From NCBI GenBank assembly GCA_001899685.1, contig MKWG01000002.1, positions 291,953 to 355,952 on the forward strand: 64,000 bases of DNA. Direction: 5' to 3'. A program made the position numbers and the translations under genes. Positions 7,433 to 21,039 of this stretch are shown here, in pieces. How positions within the stretch are numbered: the first letter of the stretch is position 1; each line of letters begins with the position of its first letter. This DNA comes from Sphingobacteriales bacterium 44-15. GTDB lineage: Bacteria; Bacteroidota; Bacteroidia; Chitinophagales; Chitinophagaceae. The notes under the pieces were generated by a model, which was given only the letters and a program-made list of their open reading frames with translations, was not told the DNA's origin and did no database searches.

Positions 7433-7446
7433 TGCCTGCAGGTAGG

Positions 7447-7767
7447 GGTTTCACGCAAAGCGCGCAGAGAAAGCAAAGACGCAACGGAAGCAATGAACAA
7501 TAAACCCTCTGTGCAACTCCGTGCTCCCTGTGCCTCCGTGGTTCAAATGGGTTTCACGCAAGGCGCTCAGCGGAACAAAGACGCAACAATAAACGATAAA
7601 CGTCAAACGATAAAACCTCTGTGCAACTCCGTGCTCCCCGTGCCTGCGTGGTTCAAATGGGTTTCACGCAAAGCGCGCAGAGAAAGCAAAGACGCAGCGG
7701 AAGCAATGAACAATAAACCCTCTGTGCAACTCCGTGCTCTCCATACCTCCGTGGTTCAAATGGGTTT
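7447..7767. repeat. Three-copy tandem repeat, unit about 103-110 bp
   Basis: Units begin with GGTTTCACGCAA at 7447, 7550 and 7660. Each has a GCAAAG/GCGCAG-rich half and then a half reading CTCTGTGCAACTCCGTGCTC followed by CCTCCGTGGTTCAAATG. Copies 1 and 3 are most alike; copy 2 has extra AAACGATAAACG sequence. It lies between a plus-strand and a minus-strand gene that converge here. An open frame of 98 codons crosses it but only reflects the repeat. Confidence 0.85.
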
Positions 7768-7785: not shown

Positions 7786-8847
7786 CTAATATGCCAGGTT
7801 TTTGAGCTTTTCCATATCAGTGATGGTAATTTTTCCTTCTTTGATCTCTATCAATTTTTCGCTCTTAAAATCACTCAGTGTACGGATGAGGGATTCGGTG
7901 GCAGTACCTATATAATGCGCCATATCTTCCCGGGAGATTTCAATAGCGCGGCTTTTTTCATTGTCTTTGAATTTATCATGGATCTCCACGAGCGCTTTGG
8001 CCACCCTTTTGCGCAGGGAGCCATAGGCAAGATTAAGCAGCCTTGTCTCTTTCTCCTTGACATTTTGAGTGATCACTTTAATGAATTTTGCCGCCACGCT
8101 TATATCGTCATATACCATCTGCACAAATTCTTCGGCAGGTATCTCCACTACTTCCGCATCTTCAAGCACCAATGCATTTTCATCATAGTTCCTTCCTTCA
8201 AGCAAGGGCATATACCCCATAAAATCTCCTTTACTGAAAAGGTCGGTAATATACTCCTTACCGTCTTCGTGCACTCTAAACCCCTTCACCTTACCGCTTT
8301 TTAAATAATACAGGAACCGGGGACGCCTTCCCTCAGTGAAAAGCACCTGTTTCCTGGAATAGGTCTCACTGCTGTATTTATTTATATCCAAAGGAAATAT
8401 CCCTGAGCCGGACAGGTCATTGGCCAATTCGCTGAAACCTTTTGCACCCGGTGCATACTTTTTTTGAAGCACGTCGTATTTTTTCAGCCGGCTTTCTATC
8501 GCATTCATCAGCTCATGCTCTTCAAACGGCTTGGTGATATAGTCATCGGCGCCCATTTCCATGCCCTTCCTGAAATCGCTCCGCTCCGTTTTGGCCGTAA
8601 GGAAAATAAAAGGGATATTTTCTGTCTCCGGGTTTTTCCTTACTAAGTGCAATACACCATAACCATCAAGCCCCGGCATCATGATATCACACACTACAAG
8701 ATCGGGCTTGCCCGACAAAACAAGGGAGACACCCTTTTTGCCGTCTTCTGCAACAAGCGTTCTATAACCGGCAAGCGCCAGCAATTCCGCGGTATTCTCC
8801 CTGAGATCATCATTGTCGTCAATAATCAAAATAGTGTGCTGAGACAT
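7786..8847 (-). CDS. Receiver-CRP/FNR fusion transcriptional regulator
   Basis: This 353-residue regulator has three parts. A CheY-like receiver (about 1-120) has Asp10/Asp11, phospho-acceptor Asp54 in VVCDIMMPG, Thr84 and Lys106. A cyclic-nucleotide-binding-type beta roll spans about 155-245, and a CRP/FNR winged helix spans about 275-353. The recognition helix reads TATESLIRTL: Glu318 and Arg322 match the Glu and Arg that read the TGA/TCA half-sites in FNR and CRP. The only cysteine is Cys53, so an FNR iron-sulfur cluster is impossible and phosphorylation is the likely input. ATG 8847 is chosen because the longer start at 8871 overlaps a perfect -7 box. It is divergent from ccoI. I infer it controls the cbb3 island. 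Confidence 0.88.
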   Translation of the reverse strand: MSQHTILIIDDNDDLRENTAELLALAGYRTLVAEDGKKGVSLVLSGKPDLVVCDIMMPGLDGYGVLHLVRKNPETENIPFIFLTAKTERSDFRKGMEMGADDYITKPFEEHELMNAIESRLKKYDVLQKKYAPGAKGFSELANDLSGSGIFPLDINKYSSETYSRKQVLFTEGRRPRFLYYLKSGKVKGFRVHEDGKEYITDLFSKGDFMGYMPLLEGRNYDENALVLEDAEVVEIPAEEFVQMVYDDISVAAKFIKVITQNVKEKETRLLNLAYGSLRKRVAKALVEIHDKFKDNEKSRAIEISREDMAHYIGTATESLIRTLSDFKSEKLIEIKEGKITITDMEKLKNLAY

Positions 8848-8868
8848 AATTTTTACTTTAGGTATCGG

Positions 8869-8876
8869 CAAATATA
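8869..8876 (-). promoter_or_regulatory. -7 promoter box of the receiver-CRP gene
   Basis: The minus strand reads TATATTTG, a perfect TAnnTTTG. The predicted transcript starts near 8863 with a leader of about 16 bases to ATG 8847. The neighbouring FNR-type site is centred about 25 bp upstream of the box, where the -33 element should be, which would suit autorepression. Confidence 0.55.
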
Positions 8877-8887
8877 CTCATTCAGTT

Positions 8888-8901
8888 TTGACAATAATCA
8901 G
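8888..8901. promoter_or_regulatory. FNR/FixK-type operator between regulator and ccoI
   Basis: The sequence is TTGAC-AATA-ATCAG, matching the FNR consensus TTGATnnnnATCAA at 8 of 10 defined bases with correct spacing. Its centre is 57.5 bp from the end of the ccoI -7 box and 25.5 bp from that of the divergent regulator gene. This geometry fits activation of ccoI and repression of the regulator. Confidence 0.6.
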
Positions 8902-8945
8902 CGGCAGAATTGAGGAACATCATAAGGCAGGCTTCCGGGTGGTGC

Positions 8946-8952
8946 TATTTTG
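8946..8952 (+). promoter_or_regulatory. -7 promoter box of ccoI
   Basis: The sequence CTATTTTGC contains TA and TTTG separated by one base rather than two. It ends eight bases before ATG 8961, so the leader would be only a few bases. This supports ATG 8961 over the longer reading from 8910. Confidence 0.4.
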
Positions 8953-8960
8953 CGGCTTAT

Positions 8961-11345
8961 ATGTCATCTACTGTAAAGCAAGCTGTTCAATGTACCCATT
9001 GCGGCGAGCCCTGTCATAACGGGAATATTACCCTTGTGGATAAAATATTCTGCTGCGAAGGGTGCCGGATGGTATATGAGATCATCAATGATAATGGTCT
9101 CTGCCGGTATTACAACCTCAACGACAGGCCCGGCATTACCCAGAAAGACCTGGCTAGGCGTGATAAATTTGCTTTTCTTGACGATGGAAAAATCGCAGCA
9201 AAGCTCATCTCTTTCAAAGACGAAAATCAAACCCATATCACTTTTTACCTGCCGCAAATGCATTGCAGCTCCTGCCTTTACCTGCTGGAGAACCTGCATA
9301 AGCTGCATGCCGGGGTCGTGTCGGCTAAAGTAAATTTTACCCGCAAAGAAGCTGACATTGTTTTTGAAAACACAAAAGCATCGCTGAGAGATGTGGCAGA
9401 GCTGCTCACGGCAGTGGGTTATGAGCCTTATATCAGCCTGAATGATTTAAAGGAAACACGCCCGGCTATGGACAGGACACAGATCGTCAGGCTGGGAATA
9501 GCGGGATTCTGCTTTAGTAATATCATGCTGATGAGCTTTCCCGACTACCTTGGCATTGACGCCAGTGAGGAAGGTATACGGGGGATATTCAGGATAGCAA
9601 ACCTCCTGTTGTCGCTGCCTGTTTTCTTTTATGCTGCCCTGCCGTTTTATGAGTCTTCCTGGAAAGGCATTAAACATAAGTTCCTCAATATAGATATCCC
9701 TATTGCCCTGGCCATCATCATTACTTTCATCCGTAGTGTTTGGGAAGTTTTTTCAGGCGCGGGAGGGGGTTATTTCGACTCGATGACCGGTATTGTTTTT
9801 TTTATGCTCGCCGGCAGGGTGGTACAGGACAAAACGTATCGGCAGCTCTCCTTCGACAGGGATTACAGCTCTTATTTTCCGGTGGCGGTATCTGTTTGGA
9901 AAGATAAAAAAGAAATACCCACGCTGTTGCCGGAGATAAAAGTAAATGACACCATGCTCATTCATCATGGCGAGCTGATCCCCGCCGACGGGCTGATCAT
10001 TAAGGGAAAGGCATTGATCGATTATAGCTTCGTAACAGGGGAATCCCTGCCGGTGCCCAAAGAGATAGGGGAAATGGTATACGCCGGCGGCAAGCAAACG
10101 GAAGGCAATATAGAAGTAATGGTCATTAAAGAAGTGAACCAGAGCTATCTCACCAGCCTTTGGAATAAAGAGGATCAGCCTCATAAGCAAAAGAGTGTTT
10201 CTTTTGTGCACCGGGTCAGCAAATACTTCACCGGTATTGTAATACTTATTGCAGGGCTTGCAGCTGCCTATTGGGCATTTCATGACCCTTCCCGCATATG
10301 GACTGCCGTGACAGCGGTCTTCATTATCGCCTGCCCCTGTGCATTATTATTGTCCAACAGCTTTACCAATGGTCATATCTTAAATATACTCGGCCGCAAC
10401 CGGTTCTACCTGCGGAAAGCGTCTGTGCTTGAAGATATTGCTCATGTTGACCATATTGTTTTTGATAAAACCGGCACACTCACTTCTGCAGGCGAACAGG
10501 AAATTGGTTATGAAGGACAGGAGCTGACTGATACGCAGATCTCAGCGGTCGTGGCATTGGCTTCCTGCTCCAACCATCCGCTCAGCAAAGCACTGGCAGC
10601 ACATTTTCCTGTCAGTGAAAAACCTGCCGTCCAGGGCTTTAAGGAATACCCGGGCAAAGGCATTGAAGGGTTTGTGAATGATCATTGGCTGTGGATAGGA
10701 GCGGCACAGGAAGGAACGCAAAAAAAGATTGCCGCTACCACCGTTCATATCCGCTTTGAAAACCAGGATACAGGGAAATTCCTGTTCAGCAATCATTACC
10801 GCAAAAGTGTACCCGAGCTATTGCAAACGCTCGGGAAAAGCTACAGGCTTTCCGTAATATCAGGAGATAATAATGCAGAAATGCAGCGGCTGCGCCGGCT
10901 TACCGGCGACAAGACCACGCTGCTTTTCCACCAGAAGCCCGAAGACAAGCTGCATTATATACAGAGCCTGCAGCAAAAGGGTGAAAAAGTAATGATGATC
11001 GGCGACGGGCTGAATGATGCAGGTGCATTGAAACAGAGTGATGCAGGCATAGCCGTAAGCGAACAGTCCAACAACTTCACCCCTGCCAGTGATGGCATTA
11101 TAGCTGCAAAGCAATTGCCTCTTCTGGATAAATTTATCCGGCTAAGCAAAATGAACAGGAAGATTGTGCTGGCAAGCTTTGCGCTTTCTGTATTATATAA
11201 TGTTATCGGACTGTATTTTGCCGTCCAGGCAGATCTTTCCCCTCTTATAGCTGCCATACTTATGCCGTCCAGCTCTCTTAGCATAGTGCTGCTCAGCTTC
11301 GGCGCCAGCAATATAGGAGCGCGGCTGATGAGGCTTGAGTGGTGA
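8961..11345 (+). CDS. ccoI: Copper-translocating P-type ATPase for cbb3 oxidase assembly
   Basis: This is a P1B-type ATPase of 794 residues. The N-terminus has a metal-binding region (CTHCGEPC, then CCEGCRMVYE) and an HMA domain with MHCSSCLYLLENL. Membrane helices follow, then the actuator loop FVTGESLPVP, the transport motif ACPCALLLS, the phosphorylation site DKTGTLTSAG and the hinge GDGLNDAGAL. CcoI/FixI exports or delivers copper for the CuB site of cbb3 oxidase, and the oxidase genes follow directly. The start is set at 8961 by the adjacent -7 box and the FNR-type site. The gene ends at 11345, where a GTGA repeat begins. Confidence 0.9.
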   Translation: MSSTVKQAVQCTHCGEPCHNGNITLVDKIFCCEGCRMVYEIINDNGLCRYYNLNDRPGITQKDLARRDKFAFLDDGKIAAKLISFKDENQTHITFYLPQMHCSSCLYLLENLHKLHAGVVSAKVNFTRKEADIVFENTKASLRDVAELLTAVGYEPYISLNDLKETRPAMDRTQIVRLGIAGFCFSNIMLMSFPDYLGIDASEEGIRGIFRIANLLLSLPVFFYAALPFYESSWKGIKHKFLNIDIPIALAIIITFIRSVWEVFSGAGGGYFDSMTGIVFFMLAGRVVQDKTYRQLSFDRDYSSYFPVAVSVWKDKKEIPTLLPEIKVNDTMLIHHGELIPADGLIIKGKALIDYSFVTGESLPVPKEIGEMVYAGGKQTEGNIEVMVIKEVNQSYLTSLWNKEDQPHKQKSVSFVHRVSKYFTGIVILIAGLAAAYWAFHDPSRIWTAVTAVFIIACPCALLLSNSFTNGHILNILGRNRFYLRKASVLEDIAHVDHIVFDKTGTLTSAGEQEIGYEGQELTDTQISAVVALASCSNHPLSKALAAHFPVSEKPAVQGFKEYPGKGIEGFVNDHWLWIGAAQEGTQKKIAATTVHIRFENQDTGKFLFSNHYRKSVPELLQTLGKSYRLSVISGDNNAEMQRLRRLTGDKTTLLFHQKPEDKLHYIQSLQQKGEKVMMIGDGLNDAGALKQSDAGIAVSEQSNNFTPASDGIIAAKQLPLLDKFIRLSKMNRKIVLASFALSVLYNVIGLYFAVQADLSPLIAAILMPSSSLSIVLLSFGASNIGARLMRLEW

Positions 11346-11418
11346 ATGATGAGAGAGGTGAGAGGTGAAAAGTCTCCAGGTTACAGGTTTCACCTTTCAC
11401 GCCTCACCTTTCACGTTC
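11345..11418. repeat. GTGA-type inverted-repeat element, copy 2
   Basis: GAGAGAGGTGAGAGGTGAAA on the left pairs imperfectly with TTTCACCTTTCACGCCTCACC and a second TTTCACG on the right, around a short centre. It follows the ccoI stop at once and ends just before the FNR-type site of ccoS, so it may end the ccoI transcript or separate the two units. Confidence 0.65.
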
Positions 11419-11422
11419 CCGC

Positions 11423-11436
11423 TTGACAAAAATCAT
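11423..11436. promoter_or_regulatory. FNR/FixK-type operator upstream of ccoS
   Basis: The sequence is TTGAC-AAAA-ATCAT, 8 of 10 consensus bases with exact N4 spacing. Its centre is 58.5 bp from the end of the -7 box at 11481-11488, the same geometry as at ccoI. Confidence 0.6.
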
Positions 11437-11480
11437 GTTCTCCGGTGATGCAGCTTATGATCCGGGGGCAGCGTGCAAAA

Positions 11481-11488
11481 TATTTTTA
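11481..11488 (+). promoter_or_regulatory. -7 promoter box of the ccoS-NOQPGH operon
   Basis: TATTTTTA matches TAnnTTTG at seven of eight positions counting the free bases. The predicted start is near 11495, about 11 bases before ATG 11506. This rules out the longer ccoS reading from 11473, which would begin upstream of the promoter box. Confidence 0.45.
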
Positions 11489-11505
11489 CAAATCAATTTT
11501 TCACT

Positions 11506-11667
11506 ATGGCTGTTATTGTCATCCTTCTTTTGGCAAGCATCTCGGTGGCCGGGCTTTTCCTGGCAGCTTTTTTATGGAGCGTGAAGTCCGGGCAGTTTGA
11601 AGACGATTTTTCCCCTCCATCCCGCATTTTGTTCGATAACGACACGCAATCATCAACCCAATCATAA
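11506..11667 (+). CDS. ccoS: cbb3 oxidase assembly/maturation protein CcoS
   Basis: This 53-residue protein has one membrane helix (MAVIVILLLASISVAGLFLA) and then FLWSVKSGQFEDDFSPPSRILFD, the diagnostic FxWSxKSGQFDD block of CcoS (FixS). CcoS is needed to insert cofactors into cbb3 oxidase. It opens the operon; ccoNO starts 23 bases after its stop. The start is chosen from the promoter geometry and from the usual CcoS N-terminus. Confidence 0.9.
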   Translation: MAVIVILLLASISVAGLFLAAFLWSVKSGQFEDDFSPPSRILFDNDTQSSTQS

Positions 11668-11690
11668 AATCAAGACAACACTACCGGTTT

Positions 11691-13823
11691 ATGCAAGTAG
11701 AGAAATTTTATTACGACAACAAAATTGTAAAAGCATTTGGCTATGCTACGGTTATTTTTGGCATTGTAGGCATGCTTGCAGGGCTATGGGCAGCTATCCA
11801 GATATATGCCCCTGCCGCCAGTCTTCATTTCGCCCCCACTACCTTCGGGCGCATCAGACCATTACATACCAATGCGATCATCTTTGCCTTTGTAGGCAAC
11901 TGTATTTTTACGGGTGTTTATTATTCGCTTCAAAGGCTGTGCAAGGCCAGGATGTTCAGCGACAGGCTTAGCTGGATCCATTTCTGGGGATGGCAGCTCA
12001 TTATAGCATCTGCCGCTATAACACTCCTCCTTGGCTTTACCACAGGTAAAGAATATGCGGAGCTGGAATGGCCGATAGATATTGCCATTACGCTGGTATG
12101 GGTTGTATTCGGCATCAACATGTTTGGCACTATCATCAAACGCAGGGAAAAGCATTTATATGTAGCCATATGGTTTTATATAGCCACATGGGTTACTGTA
12201 GCTATGCTGCATATTGTAAATTCATTTGAGATCCCTGTTACTTTTTTCAAAAGCTATAGCTGGTATGCAGGGGTGCAGGATGCGCTGGTGCAATGGTGGT
12301 ATGGGCATAATGCAGTGGCATTTTTCCTTACAACACCCATACTCGGGCTTATGTATTATTTCCTGCCCAAGGCAGCTAACCGCCCTGTATACTCCTACAG
12401 GCTTTCCATTATCCACTTCTGGTCGCTGATATTTATCTATATATGGGCCGGTCCTCACCACCTCCTGTATACTGCACTTCCCGACTGGGCGCAGTCGCTC
12501 GGAACAGTGTTCTCACTAATGCTCATATTCCCGTCATGGGGCGGTATGCTCAACGGGCTGTTTACCCTGCGCGGCGCCTGGGATAAGGTACGTGAAGATC
12601 CTGTATTGAAATTCATGGTAGTTGCCATTACCTGTTATGGTATGGCAACACTGGAAGGGCCGTTGCTGAGCCTGAAGAATGTGAATGCCATCGCCCATTT
12701 CAGCGACTGGATCATTGCCCACGTGCATGTAGGAGGGCTGGGCTGGAACGGATTCATGGCCTTCGCTATGTTGTACTATCTCGTTCCGAAAATGTGGAAT
12801 ACACCACTGTACTCTAAGAAATTAGCCACAAACCATTTCTGGCTGGGCACTATCGGCATCATACTCTATGCGGTACCGTTATACTGGGCAGGATTTACCC
12901 AGAGCATTATGTGGAAGACCTTTACCCCGGAAGGGCAACTGAAATTCCAGTTCCTTGAAACGGTAACCAATATTATCCCGATGTATGTTACCAGGAGCAT
13001 CGGCGGAGGAATATACCTTATCGGCGCACTTCTGATGGTATACAACCTGGTCAAAACAATAGCAAAGGGGCAGTTTGTAGCGAACGAGGCGGCAGAAGCG
13101 GCGCCCATTGCAAGAGAAGCGCTGGCACACAAAGAAAGCTGGCACAGGAAAATTGAGCGCAAGCCTGTAACAATGCTGGTGCTCAGCCTAATTGTTGTAG
13201 GGATCGGCGGTATACTGGAAATGGTACCGACATTTCTTGTAAAATCCAATGTGCCTACCATTGCCAGCGTAAAGCCCTATACGCCGCTCGAGTTGCAGGG
13301 AAGGGATATTTATGTAAGAGAAGGATGTTATACCTGCCACTCGCAGATGGTTCGTCCTTTCAGAGATGAGGTTGCCCGCTACGGGGAATACTCCAAAGCC
13401 GGTGAGTTTGTATACGATCATCCCTTCCAGTGGGGCAGCAAACGTACAGGACCTGATCTTGCACGTGTAGGAGGAAAATATCCTGATAGCTGGCACTACA
13501 ATCACATGGACGATCCGACCTCTATGTCGCCGGGATCTGTTATGCCTTCTTATCCATGGCTGCTCGATAATGCCCTGGATACCACTACCACAGCAGCAAA
13601 AATAAGGGCGATGCAAAAGCTTGGCGTTCCTTACCCTGAAGGGTTTGACAAAATTGCCAATACCGAATTGTCTGCACAGGCAGCGTCTATTACAGCAAGC
13701 TTAAAGAAAGACAAAATTGAGACGCCGCCGGACAAGGAGATCATTGCCCTGATCGCTTACCTGCAGCGTATCGGCAAAGACATAAAGCTGGAGCAGAACA
13801 ATACGCAAACAGCATCAAAATAA
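11691..13823 (+). CDS. ccoNO: Cytochrome cbb3 oxidase subunits I and II fused (CcoNO)
   Basis: This 710-residue fusion has CcoN in about the first 480 residues: heme- and copper-binding histidines in LHTNAIIFAFVG, WWYGHNAVAFFLT, WAGPHHLLYTALPDWAQ and AHVHVGGLGWNGFM. A linker helix joins it to a CcoO part with the heme c site CYTCHSQMVRPFRDE and axial methionine in SVMPSYPWL. The cbb3 oxidase reduces oxygen at very low concentration and pumps protons across the inner membrane. Fusion of the two subunits is typical of Bacteroidota. It lies second in the operon with ccoQ 18 bases downstream. Confidence 0.95.
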   Translation: MQVEKFYYDNKIVKAFGYATVIFGIVGMLAGLWAAIQIYAPAASLHFAPTTFGRIRPLHTNAIIFAFVGNCIFTGVYYSLQRLCKARMFSDRLSWIHFWGWQLIIASAAITLLLGFTTGKEYAELEWPIDIAITLVWVVFGINMFGTIIKRREKHLYVAIWFYIATWVTVAMLHIVNSFEIPVTFFKSYSWYAGVQDALVQWWYGHNAVAFFLTTPILGLMYYFLPKAANRPVYSYRLSIIHFWSLIFIYIWAGPHHLLYTALPDWAQSLGTVFSLMLIFPSWGGMLNGLFTLRGAWDKVREDPVLKFMVVAITCYGMATLEGPLLSLKNVNAIAHFSDWIIAHVHVGGLGWNGFMAFAMLYYLVPKMWNTPLYSKKLATNHFWLGTIGIILYAVPLYWAGFTQSIMWKTFTPEGQLKFQFLETVTNIIPMYVTRSIGGGIYLIGALLMVYNLVKTIAKGQFVANEAAEAAPIAREALAHKESWHRKIERKPVTMLVLSLIVVGIGGILEMVPTFLVKSNVPTIASVKPYTPLELQGRDIYVREGCYTCHSQMVRPFRDEVARYGEYSKAGEFVYDHPFQWGSKRTGPDLARVGGKYPDSWHYNHMDDPTSMSPGSVMPSYPWLLDNALDTTTTAAKIRAMQKLGVPYPEGFDKIANTELSAQAASITASLKKDKIETPPDKEIIALIAYLQRIGKDIKLEQNNTQTASK

Positions 13824-13841
13824 CTATTAGAAACTACGTAT

Positions 13842-14012
13842 ATGAAATTCATTCACTATCTCGAAAAGATCAGCGGCGTTGATATCTACGCACTGATCTC
13901 CTTCGGCATATTCTTCCTGTTTTTTCTTGCTATGCTCACATGGGTATTTAAAACGGATAAAAACAAACTTGACACGATCAGCAACATCCCATTGGATGAA
14001 CAAGAATCATAA
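13842..14012 (+). CDS. ccoQ: cbb3 oxidase small subunit CcoQ
   Basis: This 56-residue protein begins MKFIHYLEKISGVDIYAL, has one membrane helix (ISFGIFFLFFLAMLTWVF), and ends in a polar tail DKNKLDTISN. Size, topology and place between ccoNO and ccoP identify CcoQ (FixQ), which stabilises the oxidase complex. It lies 18 bases after ccoNO and 12 bases before ccoP. Confidence 0.85.
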   Translation: MKFIHYLEKISGVDIYALISFGIFFLFFLAMLTWVFKTDKNKLDTISNIPLDEQES

Positions 14013-14024
14013 AACTACTCTGCC

Positions 14025-15182
14025 ATGTTACTGAAAGAAATATACAAATCCCTGACCCGCCGCGCTACCGGGGTTGCCGTTATGGTATTCGTAATTGCAA
14101 CCATATCCGGCCTACCGGCATTTGCCGGTGGGCCGCCGGTACCATCCTCCCTGTCTAATTCACTGGCATTGACCCTCGTAACACTGATGATCATCCTGCT
14201 CATCATTATTGCCATGCTTGGCAACCTGCTGGTAGAAATAGCAGGTATCAGGCTGAAAAAGGAAAAAGCTGAGGAAGGAAAAAGTAAAACAGCCGTTGCT
14301 ACCGTATTGCTTCCCGTTTTCCTGCTGCTTTCCACCGGCGTCATGGCACAGGATGAAGCAAAGAGTTCTTCCGTTACCAGCATCGGGGGACTGTCTCCGT
14401 TTGCCTTCTATTCAATGCTGACCATCATTTTTGTAGAAATGCTGGTCATTCTCGTCCTGCTCATCAATATCAAATTCCTGCTTAAGAAAGATGTTGAAAG
14501 AGTATATGAAGTCACTCCTGCAAAAAAAGAGAAAACTTTCCAGGAATGGTGGGCAAAGCTTAATAAGTTCAAACCCATCGAGCAGGAATCTTCTGTGGAA
14601 CTTGAGCATGAATATGATGGCATACGCGAGCTGGACAACAGGCTTCCCCCATGGTGGCTGTATGGGTTTTATGTAACCATCATTTTTGGTGTGGTGTATC
14701 TGTGGCGTTATCACGTGGCTTACAGCGCCCCGCTCAGCAAAGAAGAGCTGGAGATCTCCATAAAGAATGCTGATGCGCAGGTAAAGGCCTATCTCGGGAA
14801 GAAAGGCGAATCCATAGATGAAAACAGCGTTGCGGTACTGACGGATGCACAGGATATTGCAGAAGGTAAAAAAATATTTACATCTTCCTGTGCAGCCTGT
14901 CATAAAGAAGACGGAGGAGGAATGGTAGGACCAAATCTTACAGATGACTACTGGATGCATGGCGGGGACATAAAAAGCATATTTAAAACCATTCGTTATG
15001 GCATCAATGCTATGCCCCAATGGCAGTCAACCTACTCCAACAAACAAATCGCACAGGTGGCCAGTTATGTCAAATCATTGCATGGCACCAATCCGCCGGG
15101 AGCAAAACCACCACAGGGAGATATTTATACAGAAGGTGCAGCAACAGCAACACCTGCTGCAGACAGCGCGACAGGTAAGTGA
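14025..15182 (+). CDS. ccoP: cbb3 oxidase cytochrome c subunit CcoP
   Basis: This 385-residue protein has two N-terminal hydrophobic segments, a helix in AFYSMLTIIFVEMLVILVLL and the CcoP N-domain helix PPWWLYGFYVTIIFGVVYLW. One cytochrome c domain (about 275-360) has CAACHKEDGGG and axial methionine in AMPQW. Only one heme c site is present, whereas proteobacterial CcoP has two; the single-heme form is common in Bacteroidota. It passes electrons to CcoN. A proline/alanine-rich tail follows. Confidence 0.92.
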   Translation: MLLKEIYKSLTRRATGVAVMVFVIATISGLPAFAGGPPVPSSLSNSLALTLVTLMIILLIIIAMLGNLLVEIAGIRLKKEKAEEGKSKTAVATVLLPVFLLLSTGVMAQDEAKSSSVTSIGGLSPFAFYSMLTIIFVEMLVILVLLINIKFLLKKDVERVYEVTPAKKEKTFQEWWAKLNKFKPIEQESSVELEHEYDGIRELDNRLPPWWLYGFYVTIIFGVVYLWRYHVAYSAPLSKEELEISIKNADAQVKAYLGKKGESIDENSVAVLTDAQDIAEGKKIFTSSCAACHKEDGGGMVGPNLTDDYWMHGGDIKSIFKTIRYGINAMPQWQSTYSNKQIAQVASYVKSLHGTNPPGAKPPQGDIYTEGAATATPAADSATGK

Positions 15183-15209
15183 TCAGTGGCCAAGAAACGG
15201 TAAGTAAGC

Positions 15210-16634
15210 ATGGAAACAGTACATAAAAACTCAACAGCGGGCGAAGAATCATTCCGCGACAGGATAGCTACAGTAGACGCTAAGGGAAAGCGTAAATGGG
15301 TTTATGCTCATAAAACACGTGGAAAACTGTTCAATATACGCACATGGGTGAGCTGGTTCTTTTTTGCGCTGTTCTTTACACTGCCTTTTATTCAATATAA
15401 AGGCAGACCATTGTTCCTGTTCAATATTCCCGAGGCAAAGTTTATTTTATTCGGGAATGTATTCTGGCCGCAGGACTTTTTCATCTTCGGGCTTTTCATG
15501 GTTACCGGTATTGTATTTATCATTTTGTTTACCGCTGCTTTCGGCCGCCTGTTTTGCGGATGGGTTTGCCCGCAGACCATTTTTATGGAAATGCTTTTCC
15601 GAAAAATAGAGTTTGCGATTGAAGGAGATGCCCCCGCTCAGAAGATGCTGAACAAAGCTCCTTGGAACAGCAAAAAGATATGGAAGAAAACCCTTAAGCA
15701 TTTTATATTTTTTGCGCTGGCTTTTATCATTTCAAATTTTTTCCTGTCCTATATCATTGGTATGAAAGCCCTGCTGGCCATCATAACAGAGCCCGCCTCA
15801 CAGCATATAGGAGGGCTTATAAGTATCATACTTTTCGCGGCAACTTTTTATGGCGTATATGCTTATTTCCGGGAGCAGGCCTGCACTGTAGTATGCCCTT
15901 ACGGAAGATTGCAGGGGGTCCTGCTCGACAGGAACTCCATGATCGTTGCATACGATTATAAACGCGGGGAACCGCGCGGCAAATTCAAAAAGCAAAAAAC
16001 CGCTATAGTGGAGACCGGCGATTGTATTGACTGCTTTCAGTGTGTAAAAGTTTGCCCTACAGGTATAGATATACGTAACGGTACCCAGATGGAATGCGTA
16101 GGCTGTACTTCGTGTATTGATGCCTGCAATAAAATGATGGATGCTACCGAGAAACCAAGGGGGCTGATAAGATATGCCTCGGAAAACGGCATTGCCGAAG
16201 GAAAGAAACTGCAGTATACCGGCAGGATGAAGTTTTATACTATACTGCTTATCGTACTCTCAGGCGTACTTACTGCTTTGCTCGTTTCAAGGAAGGATGT
16301 GGACGGTACCATTATACGCGCCGGCGGAATGCTGTACCAGGAGCGGGGTACAGACAGCGTATCCAACCTGTACAATATTAAGATGATCAACAAAACAGTA
16401 AAGGATCTTTCCATCTCTTTAAAGCTGGATGATATGCCGGGGCGGATCATTGAAGCCGAAGGCCATAATATCAGCATCAACAGAGAAGGACAGGGAACGG
16501 GGTCATTTTTTATCGTATTGCCAAGGAATATCATTAAAGAAAGAAAGACAAGGCTTTCCGTTAGTGTTTTTGAAGGGGATAAAAAGATCACCACCCTTAA
16601 AACCACCTTCATGGGACCTGCAAGCCGGAATTAG
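15210..16634 (+). CDS. ccoG: cbb3 oxidase accessory ferredoxin-like protein CcoG
   Basis: This 474-residue membrane protein has several helices, cysteine motifs CGWVCPQTIFME and CTVVCPYGRLQ, and two [4Fe-4S] motifs CIDCFQCVKVCPTGID and CVGCTSCIDACNKM (about 271-310). An Ig-like C-terminal domain is in the periplasm. CcoG (RdxA/FixG) is a copper reductase-type assembly factor for cbb3 oxidase. It lies 27 bases after ccoP. Confidence 0.93.
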   Translation: METVHKNSTAGEESFRDRIATVDAKGKRKWVYAHKTRGKLFNIRTWVSWFFFALFFTLPFIQYKGRPLFLFNIPEAKFILFGNVFWPQDFFIFGLFMVTGIVFIILFTAAFGRLFCGWVCPQTIFMEMLFRKIEFAIEGDAPAQKMLNKAPWNSKKIWKKTLKHFIFFALAFIISNFFLSYIIGMKALLAIITEPASQHIGGLISIILFAATFYGVYAYFREQACTVVCPYGRLQGVLLDRNSMIVAYDYKRGEPRGKFKKQKTAIVETGDCIDCFQCVKVCPTGIDIRNGTQMECVGCTSCIDACNKMMDATEKPRGLIRYASENGIAEGKKLQYTGRMKFYTILLIVLSGVLTALLVSRKDVDGTIIRAGGMLYQERGTDSVSNLYNIKMINKTVKDLSISLKLDDMPGRIIEAEGHNISINREGQGTGSFFIVLPRNIIKERKTRLSVSVFEGDKKITTLKTTFMGPASRN

Positions 16635-16675
16635 CATAGCCGGAAAAACACATTGTTATTTTTAAAAATACAGCT

Positions 16676-17110
16676 ATGAACTGGGGACATAAATTACTGA
16701 TCGTTATACTTTGCTTCGTGGGAATGATGGCATACCTGGTATACAAAAGCGTGCTTACGGATTTTCAGCTTGTTGACAAGGATTACTATAAAAACGAATT
16801 GAAATACCAGGAAGTAATAGATGGAGCAAACCGTGCCAGCCGGTTGAAAACTGCTGTAAGGATTGAAAGGAACGGCAACAAAATTGTGGTGCAACTACCG
16901 GATGAAATGAAAGGAGAAAAGGTCAGCGGTTCGCTCTGGTTTTATTGTGCATACGATTCAAAGAAAGACCGGAAATTGTCGTTCTCTCCCGACAGCAATG
17001 GCGTACAGTCTTTCGATGCCGCATCATTTGCGCCGGGCAACTATACGGTTAAGCTGGAATGGTTCAGCAACAATGCCGGCTATTATAAAGAGGAAAAACT
17101 CAGCTTATAA
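16676..17110 (+). CDS. ccoH: cbb3 oxidase accessory protein CcoH/FixH
   Basis: This 144-residue protein has one N-terminal helix (LLIVILCFVGMMAYLVY) and a periplasmic domain containing QLVDKDYYKNELKYQEVI, the conserved DYY/YQ block of FixH. FixH/CcoH stays with the cbb3 complex and is needed for its assembly. It starts 41 bases after ccoG and is followed two bases later by the TauE/SafE gene. Confidence 0.9.
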   Translation: MNWGHKLLIVILCFVGMMAYLVYKSVLTDFQLVDKDYYKNELKYQEVIDGANRASRLKTAVRIERNGNKIVVQLPDEMKGEKVSGSLWFYCAYDSKKDRKLSFSPDSNGVQSFDAASFAPGNYTVKLEWFSNNAGYYKEEKLSL

Positions 17111-17112
17111 TT

Positions 17113-17823
17113 ATGTGGGCAGCGCTTACCGGCGGATTGATCATTGGTTTGTTCAGCAGCCTTCATTGCGTAGGCATGTGCGGGCCGCTGGCTTTATCCC
17201 TGCCCGTACATCATCTCTCTGCTTCTCAAAGATTCGTTGCATTGCTGCTATACCAGATAGGCCGCATCATAACATATACAGCGATCGGGCTGGTTTTCGG
17301 CTATGCAGGCAGGCATCTTTATATTGCCGGATTACAGCAGGGGCTTTCTATCGGGCTTGGTATTTTTATGCTGGTGATGATAATGCTTTATTATATATAT
17401 CACCGGAATATCCAACCGTCATTTTTAAATAATTTCTATAAAAATATTCAACGGCTTATCGGTTCCCTTTTGAGATCTTCCGCTTCCGCACCTTCCTTTA
17501 TGCTGCTTGGAATGGCAAACGGTTTGTTACCCTGCGGGATGGTATACGTAGCTATTGCAGGCGCCTTGACTACAGGATCGGTTCTGCACAGCACGCTGTT
17601 TATGGCAATGTTCGGCGCCGGCACATTACCGGCAATGATGGCTTTCGGTTTACTTGGCGCCAGGCTTACACTTCCTGTACGGCAAACACTACGCCGGATC
17701 ATACCGTATGGAATAACAGTAATGGCGCTTATCCTGATCCTGCGCGGGCTTAATCTCGGCATTCCCTTTATAAGCCCGGTGCTTCAGCATGACCCGGGAG
17801 CTCCGGCAGCCTGCCATCCCTGA
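17113..17823 (+). CDS. TauE/SafE-like membrane protein at the end of the cco operon
   Basis: This 236-residue polytopic protein contains two repeats of the fold: GLIIGLFSSLHCVGMCGPLAL near the start and LLGMANGLLPCGMVYVAIAG around residues 133-152. HCVGMCGPL and NGLLPCGMVY are the conserved cysteine motifs of the DsbD-like/TauE-SafE group regularly found after ccoH. A role in copper or thiol handling for cbb3 assembly is inferred from location. It ends base-to-base against the convergent histidine kinase. Confidence 0.85.
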   Translation: MWAALTGGLIIGLFSSLHCVGMCGPLALSLPVHHLSASQRFVALLLYQIGRIITYTAIGLVFGYAGRHLYIAGLQQGLSIGLGIFMLVMIMLYYIYHRNIQPSFLNNFYKNIQRLIGSLLRSSASAPSFMLLGMANGLLPCGMVYVAIAGALTTGSVLHSTLFMAMFGAGTLPAMMAFGLLGARLTLPVRQTLRRIIPYGITVMALILILRGLNLGIPFISPVLQHDPGAPAACHP

Positions 17824-19377
17824 TCATTCTGCAGGAGGCAGCACTATAGTAAATGTTGATCCCTTTTCCAGTTCGCTGTGTACTTCTATTGTACCGTTCA
17901 GAAGGTTGAGATACCGTTTAAGAATAGGCAATCCCAAACCGGTACCCTGTATGTTACCGGCATTTTTTGCCCTGTAAAAATTATCAAAAAGGTGAGGAAG
18001 ATCTTCACCGGGTATACCAATCCCGGTATCCGTTACCGATATACTGAGCTTCTTTGCAGTGTTACTTACAATCACATCAATACATGCGTCCTCCTCAGAA
18101 AATTTAATGGCATTCGAGAGCAGGTTGATCATTGTGTTTTTTAATAGCCGCTTGTCGGTAGCGAACATGGCATCGCCTTCCGAGCGTATCCTGATCTTCT
18201 GGCCCGGCTTTGCCTGGGCTTTCATTTCTTCTGTCACTTCTTCAATAAATTCATTTACATTGAAAGAAGTGATGCTGATAGTAACTTTATTCTCCTCCAG
18301 CTTGCCCAGCGACAGAAAATCTTCCAGCAGCTCATTCATGTGTCTTACAGCATCTTTTATCTTATCAATATGCTTTTTCCGTTTGTCCTGGTCTGAAGTA
18401 TCTGTGTATTTGGAAGCCAGGGTTGCAGAAGAGAGAATAGTAGTTAAGGGAGTTCTGAATTCGTGTGAGGCCATAGAAACAAAACGGCTCTTCAGCTCAT
18501 TCAGCTGCCGCTCCTTTGCCAGTAATTCATTTAAGTCTTTCTGGGACTCCTCAAGCTTTTCCAGGGCCTCTTTTAATATAACAGTACGCTCTTCAACTTT
18601 TGCTTCGAGCTGGGTATTCAGCAATTGCATTTCGGCCGTGATTTTTTCCAGCTCAGTTTGCTTTTGCCGGATGTTCCGCTCCGTTTCCTTTCTTTCGGTG
18701 ATATCTACCACAAAGGCGATAACGAACAGCTCGTTGTTCCGTGTATAATGACTAAGGCTGACTTCTACAGGGAATTCCGAACCATCTTTCCGGATAGCAA
18801 AAAGATCCCGCCCCGACCCCATTGCACGATTAGCGGGAACTTTATAAAAGCCCTTTCGCAATTGCCCGTGATGCGTATGAAACTTGGCGGGGATCAGCAG
18901 CTCTACCGATTTACCGATCAGCTCATCTTTATCATATCCGAATATGTATTCTGCAGAAGGATTTGCAAGTATGATATTGCCCGATGTTTCAGTAAGCAAA
19001 ATACCTTCCGTGGCATTCTCAAACAGAGAGGTCATGTGCGTGCGGTCGAACTGCAGATGTACCAGCAATGATTTGATATACCATGAAAGCAATGTGGAAG
19101 CAAAGATCAGCAGAATAATAAAAAGGCTTTCCGTTGCCCCTGTAATTACACCGGTCTGATACTGATGTATAAGAGGGTATATTGCAGCAATGGCAATGCT
19201 TAATATCCCGGCAATAATTGTAGACAGGCGATGCCGTATAAAAATGGTAAGAAAAATAGCCACAAGCATCCCGCTGCTGATAATGGTTTTACCGGGGAAA
19301 TAATATCCCAGCACGATCGTCACTGCAAATATTACGAAAGCATATATAGTGGCCTGCCTGCTGTTGAATCTGATCAT
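17824..19377 (-). CDS. PAS sensor histidine kinase with FixL-like heme-pocket residues
   Basis: This 517-residue kinase has four or five N-terminal membrane helices (about 10-100), one PAS domain (115-228), a coiled coil (230-295), a HisKA domain with phospho-acceptor His305 in SMASHEFRTP, and a HATPase domain with NLLSNAIKFS, DTGIGIPGEDL and GTGLGLPILKR. In the PAS domain, THHGQLRKGFYKV is followed by GSGRDLFAIRKDGSEFP. Aligned on GSGR, His170 and Arg190 fall exactly where FixL has heme ligand His200 and distal Arg220. No receiver is encoded next to it. I infer a partner in the receiver-CRP protein at the other end of the island; heme binding is untested. Confidence 0.88.
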   Translation of the reverse strand: MIRFNSRQATIYAFVIFAVTIVLGYYFPGKTIISSGMLVAIFLTIFIRHRLSTIIAGILSIAIAAIYPLIHQYQTGVITGATESLFIILLIFASTLLSWYIKSLLVHLQFDRTHMTSLFENATEGILLTETSGNIILANPSAEYIFGYDKDELIGKSVELLIPAKFHTHHGQLRKGFYKVPANRAMGSGRDLFAIRKDGSEFPVEVSLSHYTRNNELFVIAFVVDITERKETERNIRQKQTELEKITAEMQLLNTQLEAKVEERTVILKEALEKLEESQKDLNELLAKERQLNELKSRFVSMASHEFRTPLTTILSSATLASKYTDTSDQDKRKKHIDKIKDAVRHMNELLEDFLSLGKLEENKVTISITSFNVNEFIEEVTEEMKAQAKPGQKIRIRSEGDAMFATDKRLLKNTMINLLSNAIKFSEEDACIDVIVSNTAKKLSISVTDTGIGIPGEDLPHLFDNFYRAKNAGNIQGTGLGLPILKRYLNLLNGTIEVHSELEKGSTFTIVLPPAE

Positions 19378-19430
19378 CAGGGAAAATTACTATTGATTGA
19401 TGAAATACTTTCCCTACATGCAAAAAATTT

Positions 19431-20183
19431 TTATTCCCGGACCGCCAGATCGCGTTCCATAGCGAGCGCCCTGGGAAAAAGTATATCATATTCGAGGTGT
19501 CTGTAATGCTGAAGATTGATATCAAGCTCTCTAAGCTTGGCAAAAGTGACCCTGTGTGAAATACAGGCATTTTCAGGCGGAGTATAGCTACCGGTTTTAA
19601 CACGAAACTGCAATAACAGTTCATTCACCTGCTGTGTCTCAGTGCGCATCAGCTCCTCAAGCGGCTTTTTCAGGGTGCGGGCAAGCAGGCGGGCATAAGG
19701 CTCTTTGCCGGTATGGGCATGGGTAATTTGTTTTATGTAAGGGAATAATATTTCCTGTTTCCTGTGAATCCCATGCAGAATGGTTCCCGACAGATCGGTA
19801 AGATTTTGACTCAGGCCGGTAAGTCCGGGATATTTCGATGCATGTTTGCTCAGGAATCCCTCCGTCAGCGCGGTAATGTCGGGTAATGCAACAACGAAAT
19901 AAGGGTGGTGTACATGCTCAATAAAGTCTATTAAAAAGTCCACATCCCAATCCTCATAGTTGATCAGGTGTGAAAAATGCATTTCATATTGGGCAAGACG
20001 CAATGCCTCAATAATACTTCCTGCATCAAGATCACCGCTTTCACAAATTACCCCAAGCGGCCATTTTCCGCCACAGCAATAATCTATTCCGTATTTCCTG
20101 AATACATCTGCAGCACGGTAGTCCCGCTTTACAATGTCAGAAACATTATCACTTGTTTTTATATCCTGACCGACCGATTCCAT
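19431..20183 (-). CDS. Iron-sulfur cluster repair di-iron protein (RIC/ScdA/YtfE type)
   Basis: This 250-residue protein has an N-terminal ScdA domain with VFRKYGIDYCCGGKWPL (about 28-44) and a hemerythrin-like four-helix domain with FIEHVHHPYFV, LHGIHRKQEILFPYIKQ and YRHLEYDILFPRAL. Length and both domains match RIC proteins, which repair iron-sulfur clusters damaged by nitric oxide or oxidants. It lies beside the cbb3 island, with an FNR-type site about 230 bp upstream. The start ATG at 20183 follows the normal N-terminus of the family. Confidence 0.92.
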   Translation of the reverse strand: MESVGQDIKTSDNVSDIVKRDYRAADVFRKYGIDYCCGGKWPLGVICESGDLDAGSIIEALRLAQYEMHFSHLINYEDWDVDFLIDFIEHVHHPYFVVALPDITALTEGFLSKHASKYPGLTGLSQNLTDLSGTILHGIHRKQEILFPYIKQITHAHTGKEPYARLLARTLKKPLEELMRTETQQVNELLLQFRVKTGSYTPPENACISHRVTFAKLRELDINLQHYRHLEYDILFPRALAMERDLAVRE

Positions 20184-20240
20184 TTTGTTGAATGGTATTG
20201 TTGAATGAACGAAACATGTTGTCCGGCACCTTTTATCATA

Positions 20241-20338
20241 CGTGAGATGACAAACGTGAAACGTGAAGCCTGATAGCTCATCGCCGATACCTCACACCTG
20301 ACAAGCATTCACTTTTATCCGTTCACCTTTCACTTCTG
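20241..20338. repeat. GTGA-type inverted-repeat element, copy 3
   Basis: CGTGAGATGACAAACGTGAA and ACGTGAAG on the left face CTCACACCTGAC, TTCACTTTT, GTTCACC and TTTCACTTCTGAC on the right. It lies upstream of the RIC gene and would be inside its leader if transcription starts near 20351. Confidence 0.6.
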
Positions 20339-20357
20339 ACTATAGTAATCCGGCCCT

Positions 20358-20364
20358 CAAATTA
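20358..20364 (-). promoter_or_regulatory. Possible -7 box of the RIC gene
   Basis: The minus strand reads CTAATTTG, the same one-base-short form as the CTATTTTG box of ccoI. It lies 57.5 bp from the centre of the FNR-type site at 20409-20422. A leader of about 165 bases would result, which is long, so this is tentative. Confidence 0.3.
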
Positions 20365-20408
20365 GACAGCAGCAATACCGGAATCTTTGAGCATAATTAC
20401 CACACAAT

Positions 20409-20422
20409 ATGATTTTAATCAT
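20409..20422. promoter_or_regulatory. FNR/FixK-type operator, RIC side
   Basis: ATGAT-TTTA-ATCAT has perfectly symmetric arms and matches TTGATnnnnATCAA at 8 of 10 positions. It lies between the divergent RIC and flavoprotein genes, 59 bp from a second such site. Confidence 0.55.
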
Positions 20423-20467
20423 GTTTTTGGAAGGCGCTGTTATTCAAAAAATTTTCGGGTGATGGGA

Positions 20468-20481
20468 ATGATTATTATCAG
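20468..20481. promoter_or_regulatory. FNR/FixK-type operator, flavoprotein side
   Basis: ATGAT-TATT-ATCAG matches the FNR consensus in the inner TGAT/ATCA bases. Its centre is 58.5 bp from the end of the -7 box at 20526-20533, the same geometry as at ccoS. Confidence 0.55.
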
Positions 20482-20502
20482 AACGGCTGTTAAGCAATAT
20501 CA

Positions 20503-20533
20503 TTGAGTTCCTTCCTTTTGCCGGATATATTTG
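20503..20533 (+). promoter_or_regulatory. -33/-7 promoter of the flavoprotein-DUF2892 genes
   Basis: The -7 box TATATTTG at 20526-20533 is perfect. A partial -33 (TTG at 20503-20505) lies 20 bp upstream. The predicted start near 20540 leaves a 25-base leader to ATG 20566 and excludes the longer reading from 20503. Confidence 0.5.
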
Positions 20534-20565: not shown

Positions 20566-21039
20566 ATGTTGGGTAAACTTAATGATAATGAAATAGAAAA
20601 ATTGCTTGGCAGCCAGGTAATAGGACGCCTGGGTTGTCATGCCGATGGTAAGATATATGTGCTTCCCATAAGCTATGCGTACGATGGCAGGTATATCTAC
20701 TGCCATACAGAGGAAGGCATGAAAATAAATATTATGCGCAGTAACCCCGATGTCTGCTTCCAGGTAGACAAGATGCATAGTATGGCCAACTGGCAGAGCG
20801 TAATAGTATGGGGCAGTTTTGAAGAGCTGAAAGATGAGCAGGCACGTAATGAGGCATTAAAGATATTGACAGGAAGAGCGTTGCCCATCTTAAGCAGTGA
20901 AACCACACATCTGTTCCCGCACTGGCCTTTTCCGTCGGAAGACTTAGGCACCATCGGAGGGATCGTATTCCGCATTCTTCCCACAGAAAAAACAGGAAGG
21001 TTCGAGAGCAACCAGCAATCTACACATTTTAATGTTTAA
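20566..21039 (+). CDS. Pyridoxamine 5'-phosphate oxidase-like flavin-binding protein
   Basis: This 157-residue protein has the split-barrel flavin-binding fold: LLGSQVIGRLGCHADGKIYV, PISYAYDGRYIYCHTEEG and WQSVIVWGSFEELKD are the usual strands of the Pyridox_ox_2 group. Family members bind FMN or heme; many are induced under low oxygen or nitrosative stress. The start is taken at 20566, inside the transcript predicted from the -7 box. The DUF2892 gene follows after 37 bases, probably in the same unit. The FNR-type site upstream suggests low-oxygen control. Confidence 0.82.
   Translation: MLGKLNDNEIEKLLGSQVIGRLGCHADGKIYVLPISYAYDGRYIYCHTEEGMKINIMRSNPDVCFQVDKMHSMANWQSVIVWGSFEELKDEQARNEALKILTGRALPILSSETTHLFPHWPFPSEDLGTIGGIVFRILPTEKTGRFESNQQSTHFNV

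Follow-up and report, generated by a model that had tools for sequence, protein, structure and literature searches.

What controls a cbb3 oxidase gene island that lies between the gene for a sensor kinase and the gene for a regulator with a CRP/FNR-type DNA-binding part? The question is raised by a 64,000-nucleotide stretch of Sphingobacteriales bacterium 44-15, which was analyzed over its whole length and is called the window here; its source genome measures 6.0 Mb, and the closest named relatives of the window regulator belong to Chitinophagaceae. A sequence-only reading had described a PAS kinase gene (17824–19377) and a receiver–CRP/FNR fusion gene (7786–8847) as brackets of the island, and Pfam searches confirmed these coordinates and domains. 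Both genes are encoded on the minus strand, the regulator gene to the left and the kinase gene to the right of the cco genes, which all lie on the plus strand. In our assessment, kinase and regulator are probably cognate partners, a two-component system in which two proteins take over the tasks of the three proteins FixL, FixJ, and FixK. The interpretation given in the sequence-only reading is partly supported as a whole.

That reading had paired the two genes by location only and suggested a survey of other Bacteroidota for the same pair. The pairing now has backing from both the window's own genome and other species. When the kinase was compared with its own genome, one clear second copy emerged (332.5 bits; next match 106.8); on contig C38, it adjoins a further copy of the regulator. 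Beyond this genome, we compared 24 survey loci and 80 named loci. The named set comprises the best 80 of 581 regulator matches, which biases it toward the window protein, and some of its members may also be among the survey genomes; the survey set includes two loci from one genome and the window genome's own second copy. Immediately upstream of the regulator and in the same orientation, a homologue of the kinase is encoded in 22 of 24 survey and 71 of 78 named loci, or 93/102 (two named loci with too little upstream DNA were left out of this count). In a sample of the phylum, the fusion was detected in 23 of 148 genomes (E ≤ 1e-40), all from the window's class, Bacteroidia, by scoring at most 14 first-look candidates per genome, which may miss fusions. 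Genes of the cco set (>100 bits) accompany the regulator in 7/24 survey and 30/80 named loci (37/104). The chance expectation is about 1 in 200, a rough estimate of our own that assumes about one ccoN per 2–6 Mb genome and a flank of 16–19 kb.

The bracketing layout is real in the window but uncommon. Regulator and kinase genes are usually adjacent elsewhere, often near cco genes, and the only other locus in which we saw the bracketing arrangement is that of Flavihumibacter cheonanensis (L069), where the locus ends within the kinase gene. Since the pair is conserved elsewhere and the same split recurs in L069, the window appears to show this pair after a local rearrangement. The 9 kb between the two genes, with the cco genes in between, could also mean that the kinase and regulator at the island ends are unrelated and that each has another partner. 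A second observation points the same way and counts against our reading: the resemblance of regulator and kinase homologues to the first or second copy of the window genome agrees in only 48/89 loci, and copy preference was therefore dropped as proof of pairing. Its size does correlate between regulator and kinase (Spearman 0.55, uncorrected for phylogeny). Set against the adjacent homologous pairs, the linked paralogous pair in the same genome, and the split shared with L069, unrelated island ends appear very improbable.

The regulator, a protein of 353 amino acids, contains the Pfam domains Response_reg (residues 6–118), cNMP_binding (162–245), and HTH_Crp_2 (280–351). Residues D54 and K106 of the receiver and E318 and R322 of the recognition helix are invariant among 25 aligned sequences. 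Its sole cysteine in the whole chain is C53, and the protein therefore lacks the four-cysteine ligand set of the 4Fe-4S protein FNR. With a cNMP-type fold, a Crp helix-turn-helix, and an E...R recognition helix, it shares the features of the FixK/CRP-FNR superfamily; FixK, however, stands alone without an input domain of its own, whereas this chain begins with a receiver. FixJ combines a receiver with a LuxR-type GerE helix-turn-helix, unlike the cNMP_binding and HTH_Crp_2 output found here. The best PDB matches of the receiver are of the PleD, RpaA, and MtrA types, and the own genome holds 51 receiver matches. The earlier proposal that FixJ-like and FixK-like functions share one chain without an iron–sulfur cluster thus holds for the single chain, its one cysteine, and its FNR/FixK-type DNA-binding half, but the likeness to FixJ is one of role only.

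The sequence-only reading had also placed FNR-type operators before the ccoI, ccoS, flavoprotein, and RIC genes, a claim that is now backed by enrichment across genomes and by promoter spacing. Within the window, TGAYN4RTCA occurs five times, which is not above chance (shuffle mean 3.95; at least five sites in 29 of 100 shuffles), and we rejected the number of dyads as evidence. All five fall within 7842–20480, four of them between genes (8889, 11424, 20410, and 20469) and one inside the regulator gene; they hold the TGAY-N4-RTCA core and differ in the outer bases. We take the window operators as real because of the comparison with other genomes. In an unbiased scan that covered every inverted repeat with arms of 4 or 5 bases, TGAT-N4-ATCA was the top dyad before ccoI and ccoNO. 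Counts of TGAYN4RTCA in upstream regions omitted matches that start past query residue 40 or score below 60 bits, which leaves six regions each for the histidine kinase and ccoP. The motif was present before ccoNO in 18/22 regions (shuffle mean 0.60), ccoI in 9/17 (0.43), RIC in 4/5 (0.12), PNPOx in 4/5 (0.10), and the kinase in 3/6. No site was found before the internal genes ccoX (0/25), ccoH (0/19), and ccoP (0/6), and ccoG had a site in 3/25 regions. The regulator, mostly the second gene of its operon, had one in 9/106. Upstream regions of neighboring genes were discarded as a negative control; they are themselves enriched (231/1124 versus 22.9 in shuffles), so shuffles and the internal cco genes served instead.

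Promoter spacing provides a second line of evidence. We take the −7 box consensus of Bacteroidota to be TAnnTTTG. Across the 104 loci, the distance from site centre to −7 box peaks at 51 bp (58 cases) and 29 bp (42 cases), compared to 0.55 cases per other distance. The peaks are carried by 25 and 21 gene families, respectively, a distance of 40 bp gives none, and a reversed control motif, which has fewer sites, shows no peak. Classical CRP/FNR activator positions are near −41.5 and −63.5. With a start site a few bases past the box, the operator centres would lie near −63.5 and −41.5, as expected for activator sites.

The four intergenic operators of the window, all located by the motif scan, were also searched for −7-like boxes. 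When distances of 8–89 bp were tested, the best −7-like boxes downstream of 8889, 11424, and 20469 were found at 50, 51, and 51 bp. The first operator, TGACAATAATCA (8889–8900), lies between the divergent regulator and ccoI genes and is followed in the ccoI direction by the weak box CTATTTTG (8945–8952, plus strand). Before ccoS-NO-P-G-H, TGACAAAAATCA (11424–11435) precedes the box TATTTTTA (11481–11488, plus strand). Upstream of the flavoprotein gene, TGATTATTATCA (20469–20480) precedes a perfect box, TATATTTG (20526–20533, plus strand). Toward RIC and the kinase on the minus strand, the operator TGATTTTAATCA (20410–20421) has only a weak −7 match at 50/51 bp and a slightly better one at 16 bp. 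The regulator gene has a predicted −7 box of its own, again a perfect TATATTTG (8869–8876, minus strand), with the centre of the 8889 operator 18 bp upstream; the site thereby covers the expected −33 region of this promoter, which suggests that the regulator represses its own gene. Part of this picture fits our reading poorly, as the −7 boxes of ccoI and RIC are weak and the ATG at 8961 follows the predicted ccoI box so closely that hardly any leader remains.

Across the 6-Mb genome, there are seven exact site-plus-box composites, four with a spacing of 51 bp (reversed-pattern control, 2) and three with 29 bp (control, 0). One is the flavoprotein promoter of the window, and four (C38:36339–44812, locus L035) lie on contig C38 at distances of up to 5 kb from the second kinase–regulator pair (38.5–41.1 kb); among these four, one immediately precedes the second kinase gene. 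The surroundings of this pair include two universal stress protein (Usp) genes, an Hsp20 gene, a gene resembling phosphoenolpyruvate (PEP) synthase or pyruvate phosphate dikinase, and a zinc-ribbon gene, and we consider the cluster a likely survival regulon. A further composite (C22:86358–86422, L230) precedes a CRP-family gene, with a cytochrome c gene and another, longer open reading frame (ORF) without Pfam match in divergent orientation, possibly indicating a cascade to another respiratory operon; the remaining one is on contig C28. Sites also accompany Usp, Hsp20, radical-SAM (HemN-like by our own reading), RIC, and P-type ATPase genes near the pair in other species. By analogy, this site-bearing gene set resembles known low-oxygen and dormancy regulons. 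Separately, a protein of 130 amino acids without Pfam match (L104:12109–12498 and relatives) is encoded near the pair in 17 loci, with an operator upstream in 10.

Whether the fusion is the protein that acts at these operators depends on its relation to stand-alone FNR proteins. A site within 420 bp upstream of ccoN is present in 18/19 cases in Bacteroidia with the fusion and in 2/20 cases in other classes (the first 20 of 68 ccoN-bearing genomes). Several observations, most of them from Bacteroidia lacking the fusion, count against our reading. In 11 such genomes, 10/13 ccoN cases have the same site, and the spacing is shared as well (29 bp in six cases and 51 bp in one, versus seven and five with the fusion). 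A stand-alone FNR can thus use the operator too, and the spacing is a sign of activation of the FNR type and not of the fusion as such. Moreover, ccoN is found in 20/23 Bacteroidia genomes with the fusion and in 11/14 without, so that co-occurrence of fusion and ccoN fails as evidence within the class. Finally, the own genome encodes a Cys-rich FNR-like protein on C22.

An iron–sulfur FNR-type protein could accordingly be the real activator at the cco operators, with the pair controlling other genes or only modulating these. On this side, a stand-alone CRP/FNR protein is encoded 2.9–5.0 kb from ccoN in 8 of the 11 fusion-less genomes; six of the eight proteins carry an N-terminal CxxC, which is absent in G012 and G095, and no matching frame in the 11 genomes exceeds 254 amino acids when every candidate is scored. 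The recognition helix of these cco-linked proteins is almost identical to that of the fusion (GTATES.IR), whereas the own FNR-like protein differs from the fusion (ETLFR versus ESLIR). Frame length, used as a proxy only, was surveyed in 99 Bacteroidia genomes, 76 of them with a match; among the 70 genomes listed, 25 hold both frame lengths, 20 only the long, and 25 only the short one. A strict replacement of FNR by the fusion, although clean in 14 genomes, was rejected given at least 25 genomes with both lengths, and a simple swap is thus not indicated. Three genomes (G002, G045, and G049) have the fusion and keep the site before ccoN with no FNR-length match at E ≤ 1e-18, a threshold that also missed G002's own fusion and that a diverged FNR could escape too. 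Together with the differing helix of the own FNR-like protein and the four composites around the second pair, this renders an FNR-type activator in place of the fusion unlikely, while a stand-alone FNR may share or even own these operators, given that the sites also occur in Bacteroidia without the fusion. Since the own genome has the Cys-rich gene, joint control is conceivable, as in Rhizobium leguminosarum, where the hFixL–FxkR–FixK system and FnrN share anaeroboxes (PMC7888657).

For the fusion-centered reading, the nature of the signal depends on the kinase. This protein of 517 amino acids has a hydrophobic N-terminus (read by eye), a FixL/DosP-like PAS region with Pfam matches between residues 114 and 231, and the HisKA and HATPase_c domains that also mark FixL as a kinase. 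A comparison of its PAS domain with PDB matched 20 sequences, the best 14 being 10jx and 13 chains of FixL/DosP type. The sequence-only reading had ascribed both FixL heme-pocket residues to this domain, and the alignment bears this out, with a proximal His and a distal Arg at the positions that we take to serve heme binding and the distal role in FixL and DosP. At the positions of the BjFixL pocket residues, presumably numbered I215, L236, and I238, the kinase has A, V, and L (counted by eye). These features make the window kinase a candidate FixL-type sensor whose PAS domain likely binds heme.

Among the 93 linked kinases, ORFs were obtained for 90, of which 84 match a PAS profile built partly from the same sequences. 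The FixL-type His is present in 80/84 and His together with Arg in 46/84, and six survey kinases (L041 and L045–L049) have a near-canonical FixL PAS. A group of other PAS domains was rejected as a control, for it included additional linked-kinase copies as well as FixL-type kinases located next to the pair; the PAS domains of the own genome were used instead. In this small set, in which several domains align only partly, the FixL-type His occurs in the two linked kinases only; in L058 and L061 the His is one column off. In six loci (L108, L110, L113, L114, L122, and L137), the receiver-CRP gene and a kinase that lacks a PAS match are directly preceded by another kinase with two FixL-type PAS domains, an arrangement that may represent a split or multi-kinase version of the sensor.

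The remaining kinases argue against a uniform oxygen sensor. His without Arg is found in 34 of the 84, four have no His, and 6/90 show no PAS match. In 18 of the 34, Met takes the place of Arg and a GxGMDL-type motif replaces GxGRDL (e.g., L034, L035, and L040); the second kinase of the window genome, which lies in L035, is one of these. Such a residue possibly provides another heme ligand or reflects another signal, and Met-variant kinases may sense something else. The pair could thus be cognate and control these operators while its PAS domain responds to a cue other than oxygen, be it NO, CO, redox state via heme, or a non-heme ligand. A link to nitrosative stress is known for RIC-type proteins, and the sites before the RIC and flavoprotein genes, like the composite between a CRP-family and a cytochrome c gene on C22, would suit such a cue. 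The window kinase itself, however, has both His and Arg, several linked kinases carry the near-canonical PAS, and cbb3 genes lie near the pair in more than a third of the loci; we therefore consider a non-oxygen cue improbable.

Under the oxygen-sensing reading, low oxygen would be registered by the PAS domain, probably via heme, and the kinase would then transfer phosphate to D54 in the receiver domain. In this form, the regulator, as a dimer of the FNR type, would bind to TGAYN4RTCA dyads near position −41.5 or −63.5 relative to the start site and activate transcription. In the window, ccoI, ccoS-NO-P-G-H, RIC-kinase, and the PNPOx flavoprotein gene would be switched on, while the regulator would probably repress its own gene.

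The island and its neighborhood comprise the following genes, all on the plus strand unless stated otherwise. A ccoI-type copper P-type ATPase gene (8961–11345; Pfam E1-E2_ATPase and ATPase-cat_bd) is followed by ccoS (11506–11667; FixS) and a fused ccoN/ccoO gene for subunits I and II of the oxidase (11691–13823; NF011053, 1276.5 bits). An ORF of 56 amino acids (13842–14012) takes the ccoQ position and is assigned by position alone. Next come ccoP (14025–15182; FixP_N and Cytochrome_CBB3), ccoG (15210–16634; TIGR02745, 405.9 bits), ccoH (16676–17110; FixH), and a gene for a DsbD_2-family membrane protein that ends the set and is named ccoX here (17113–17823). On the minus strand, the gene for a RIC-type di-iron Fe–S repair protein (19431–20183; ScdA_N; TIGR03652 at 142.6 bits, under its cut-off of 204.7) lies 53 bp upstream of the kinase gene, and both are presumably co-transcribed. 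The flavoprotein gene (20566–21039; Pyridox_ox_2) completes the list. Just downstream of the regulator gene, at 7446–7767, an intergenic repeat of about 109 nucleotides occurs in three direct copies (68% and 95% identity to the first).

A tree of the CRP halves was built from 58 of 122 sequences. Here, the 41 fusions form one clade, which is not strongly supported (87/93), and 13 of 17 stand-alone proteins form another (95/87) that lies next to the fusion clade under midpoint rooting. An evenly balanced conjecture is that the regulator is an FNR relative whose iron–sulfur sensor gave way to a receiver, possibly once and early in Bacteroidia. One cbb3/anaerobox regulon with the same operators and spacing would then be run by an iron–sulfur sensor, a heme-PAS kinase, or both, and duplicated pairs would divide the work between respiration (window) and a Usp/Hsp20/PEP-synthase survival set (C38). 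If the two-protein reading of the pair is true, a single kinase and a single regulator can make up a FixL-FixJ-FixK-type cascade, and an activator of the FNR type can exchange direct metal sensing for control by phosphorylation with its regulon kept. The recurrent pair and its predicted operators and spacing yield testable predictions for many soil, water, and plant-associated species.

The sequence-only reading knew of no earlier description of such a circuit. In the open-licence literature, we likewise found no report of Bacteroidota in which a FixL-like kinase and a receiver-CRP regulator are paired, and none on the control of the cbb3 oxidase in these bacteria. Oxygen limitation strongly raises the expression of the cbb3 oxidase in Flavobacterium psychrophilum (PMC9723704); the main text of that article contains none of the terms Crp, FNR, and histidine kinase.

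DosR is a LuxR-type regulator, unlike the fusion. The DosR/OsdR dormancy regulon (PMC5069765) and the Burkholderia lxa locus (PMC6127331) are low-oxygen gene sets that include universal stress proteins; in lxa, six Usp are accompanied by one heat shock protein. Both thereby resemble the surroundings of the second pair with its Usp, Hsp20, and PEP-synthase-like genes; both systems use other sensor domains. NmpRSTU of Myxococcus xanthus also has a heme-dependent kinase, and NmpR targets include a cbb3 oxidase and a hemN–hemerythrin operon, but it relies on a protoglobin sensor, NtrC-like regulators, and a phosphorelay of several proteins (PMC11841059). With FNR and FnrN, the oxygen sensors of the CRP/FNR family that use an iron–sulfur cluster, the fusion shares its DNA-binding half, operator, and cbb3 targets; it differs in lacking the cysteine set and in receiving its input through the receiver domain. 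The closest parallel is provided by the FixL-FixJ-FixK and hFixL–FxkR–FixK systems, the latter from R. leguminosarum. The shared features are a PAS kinase with the FixL His and Arg, a CRP/FNR-type activator without the iron–sulfur ligand set, the anaerobox operator TTGAT-N4-ATCAA, and fixNOQP and fixGHIS as targets, and the rhizobial fixK-hfixL operon adjoins fixNOQP (PMC7888657). The differences are that many of the kinases homologous to ours lack the Arg, that the receiver has its best PDB matches among PleD, RpaA, and MtrA types, that the output is not LuxR-type, and that receiver and FixK-like activator form one chain, so no transcriptional relay is needed. In outline, the pair thus appears to work like FixL-FixJ-FixK, and by the features compared here its regulator is a member of neither FixJ nor FNR.

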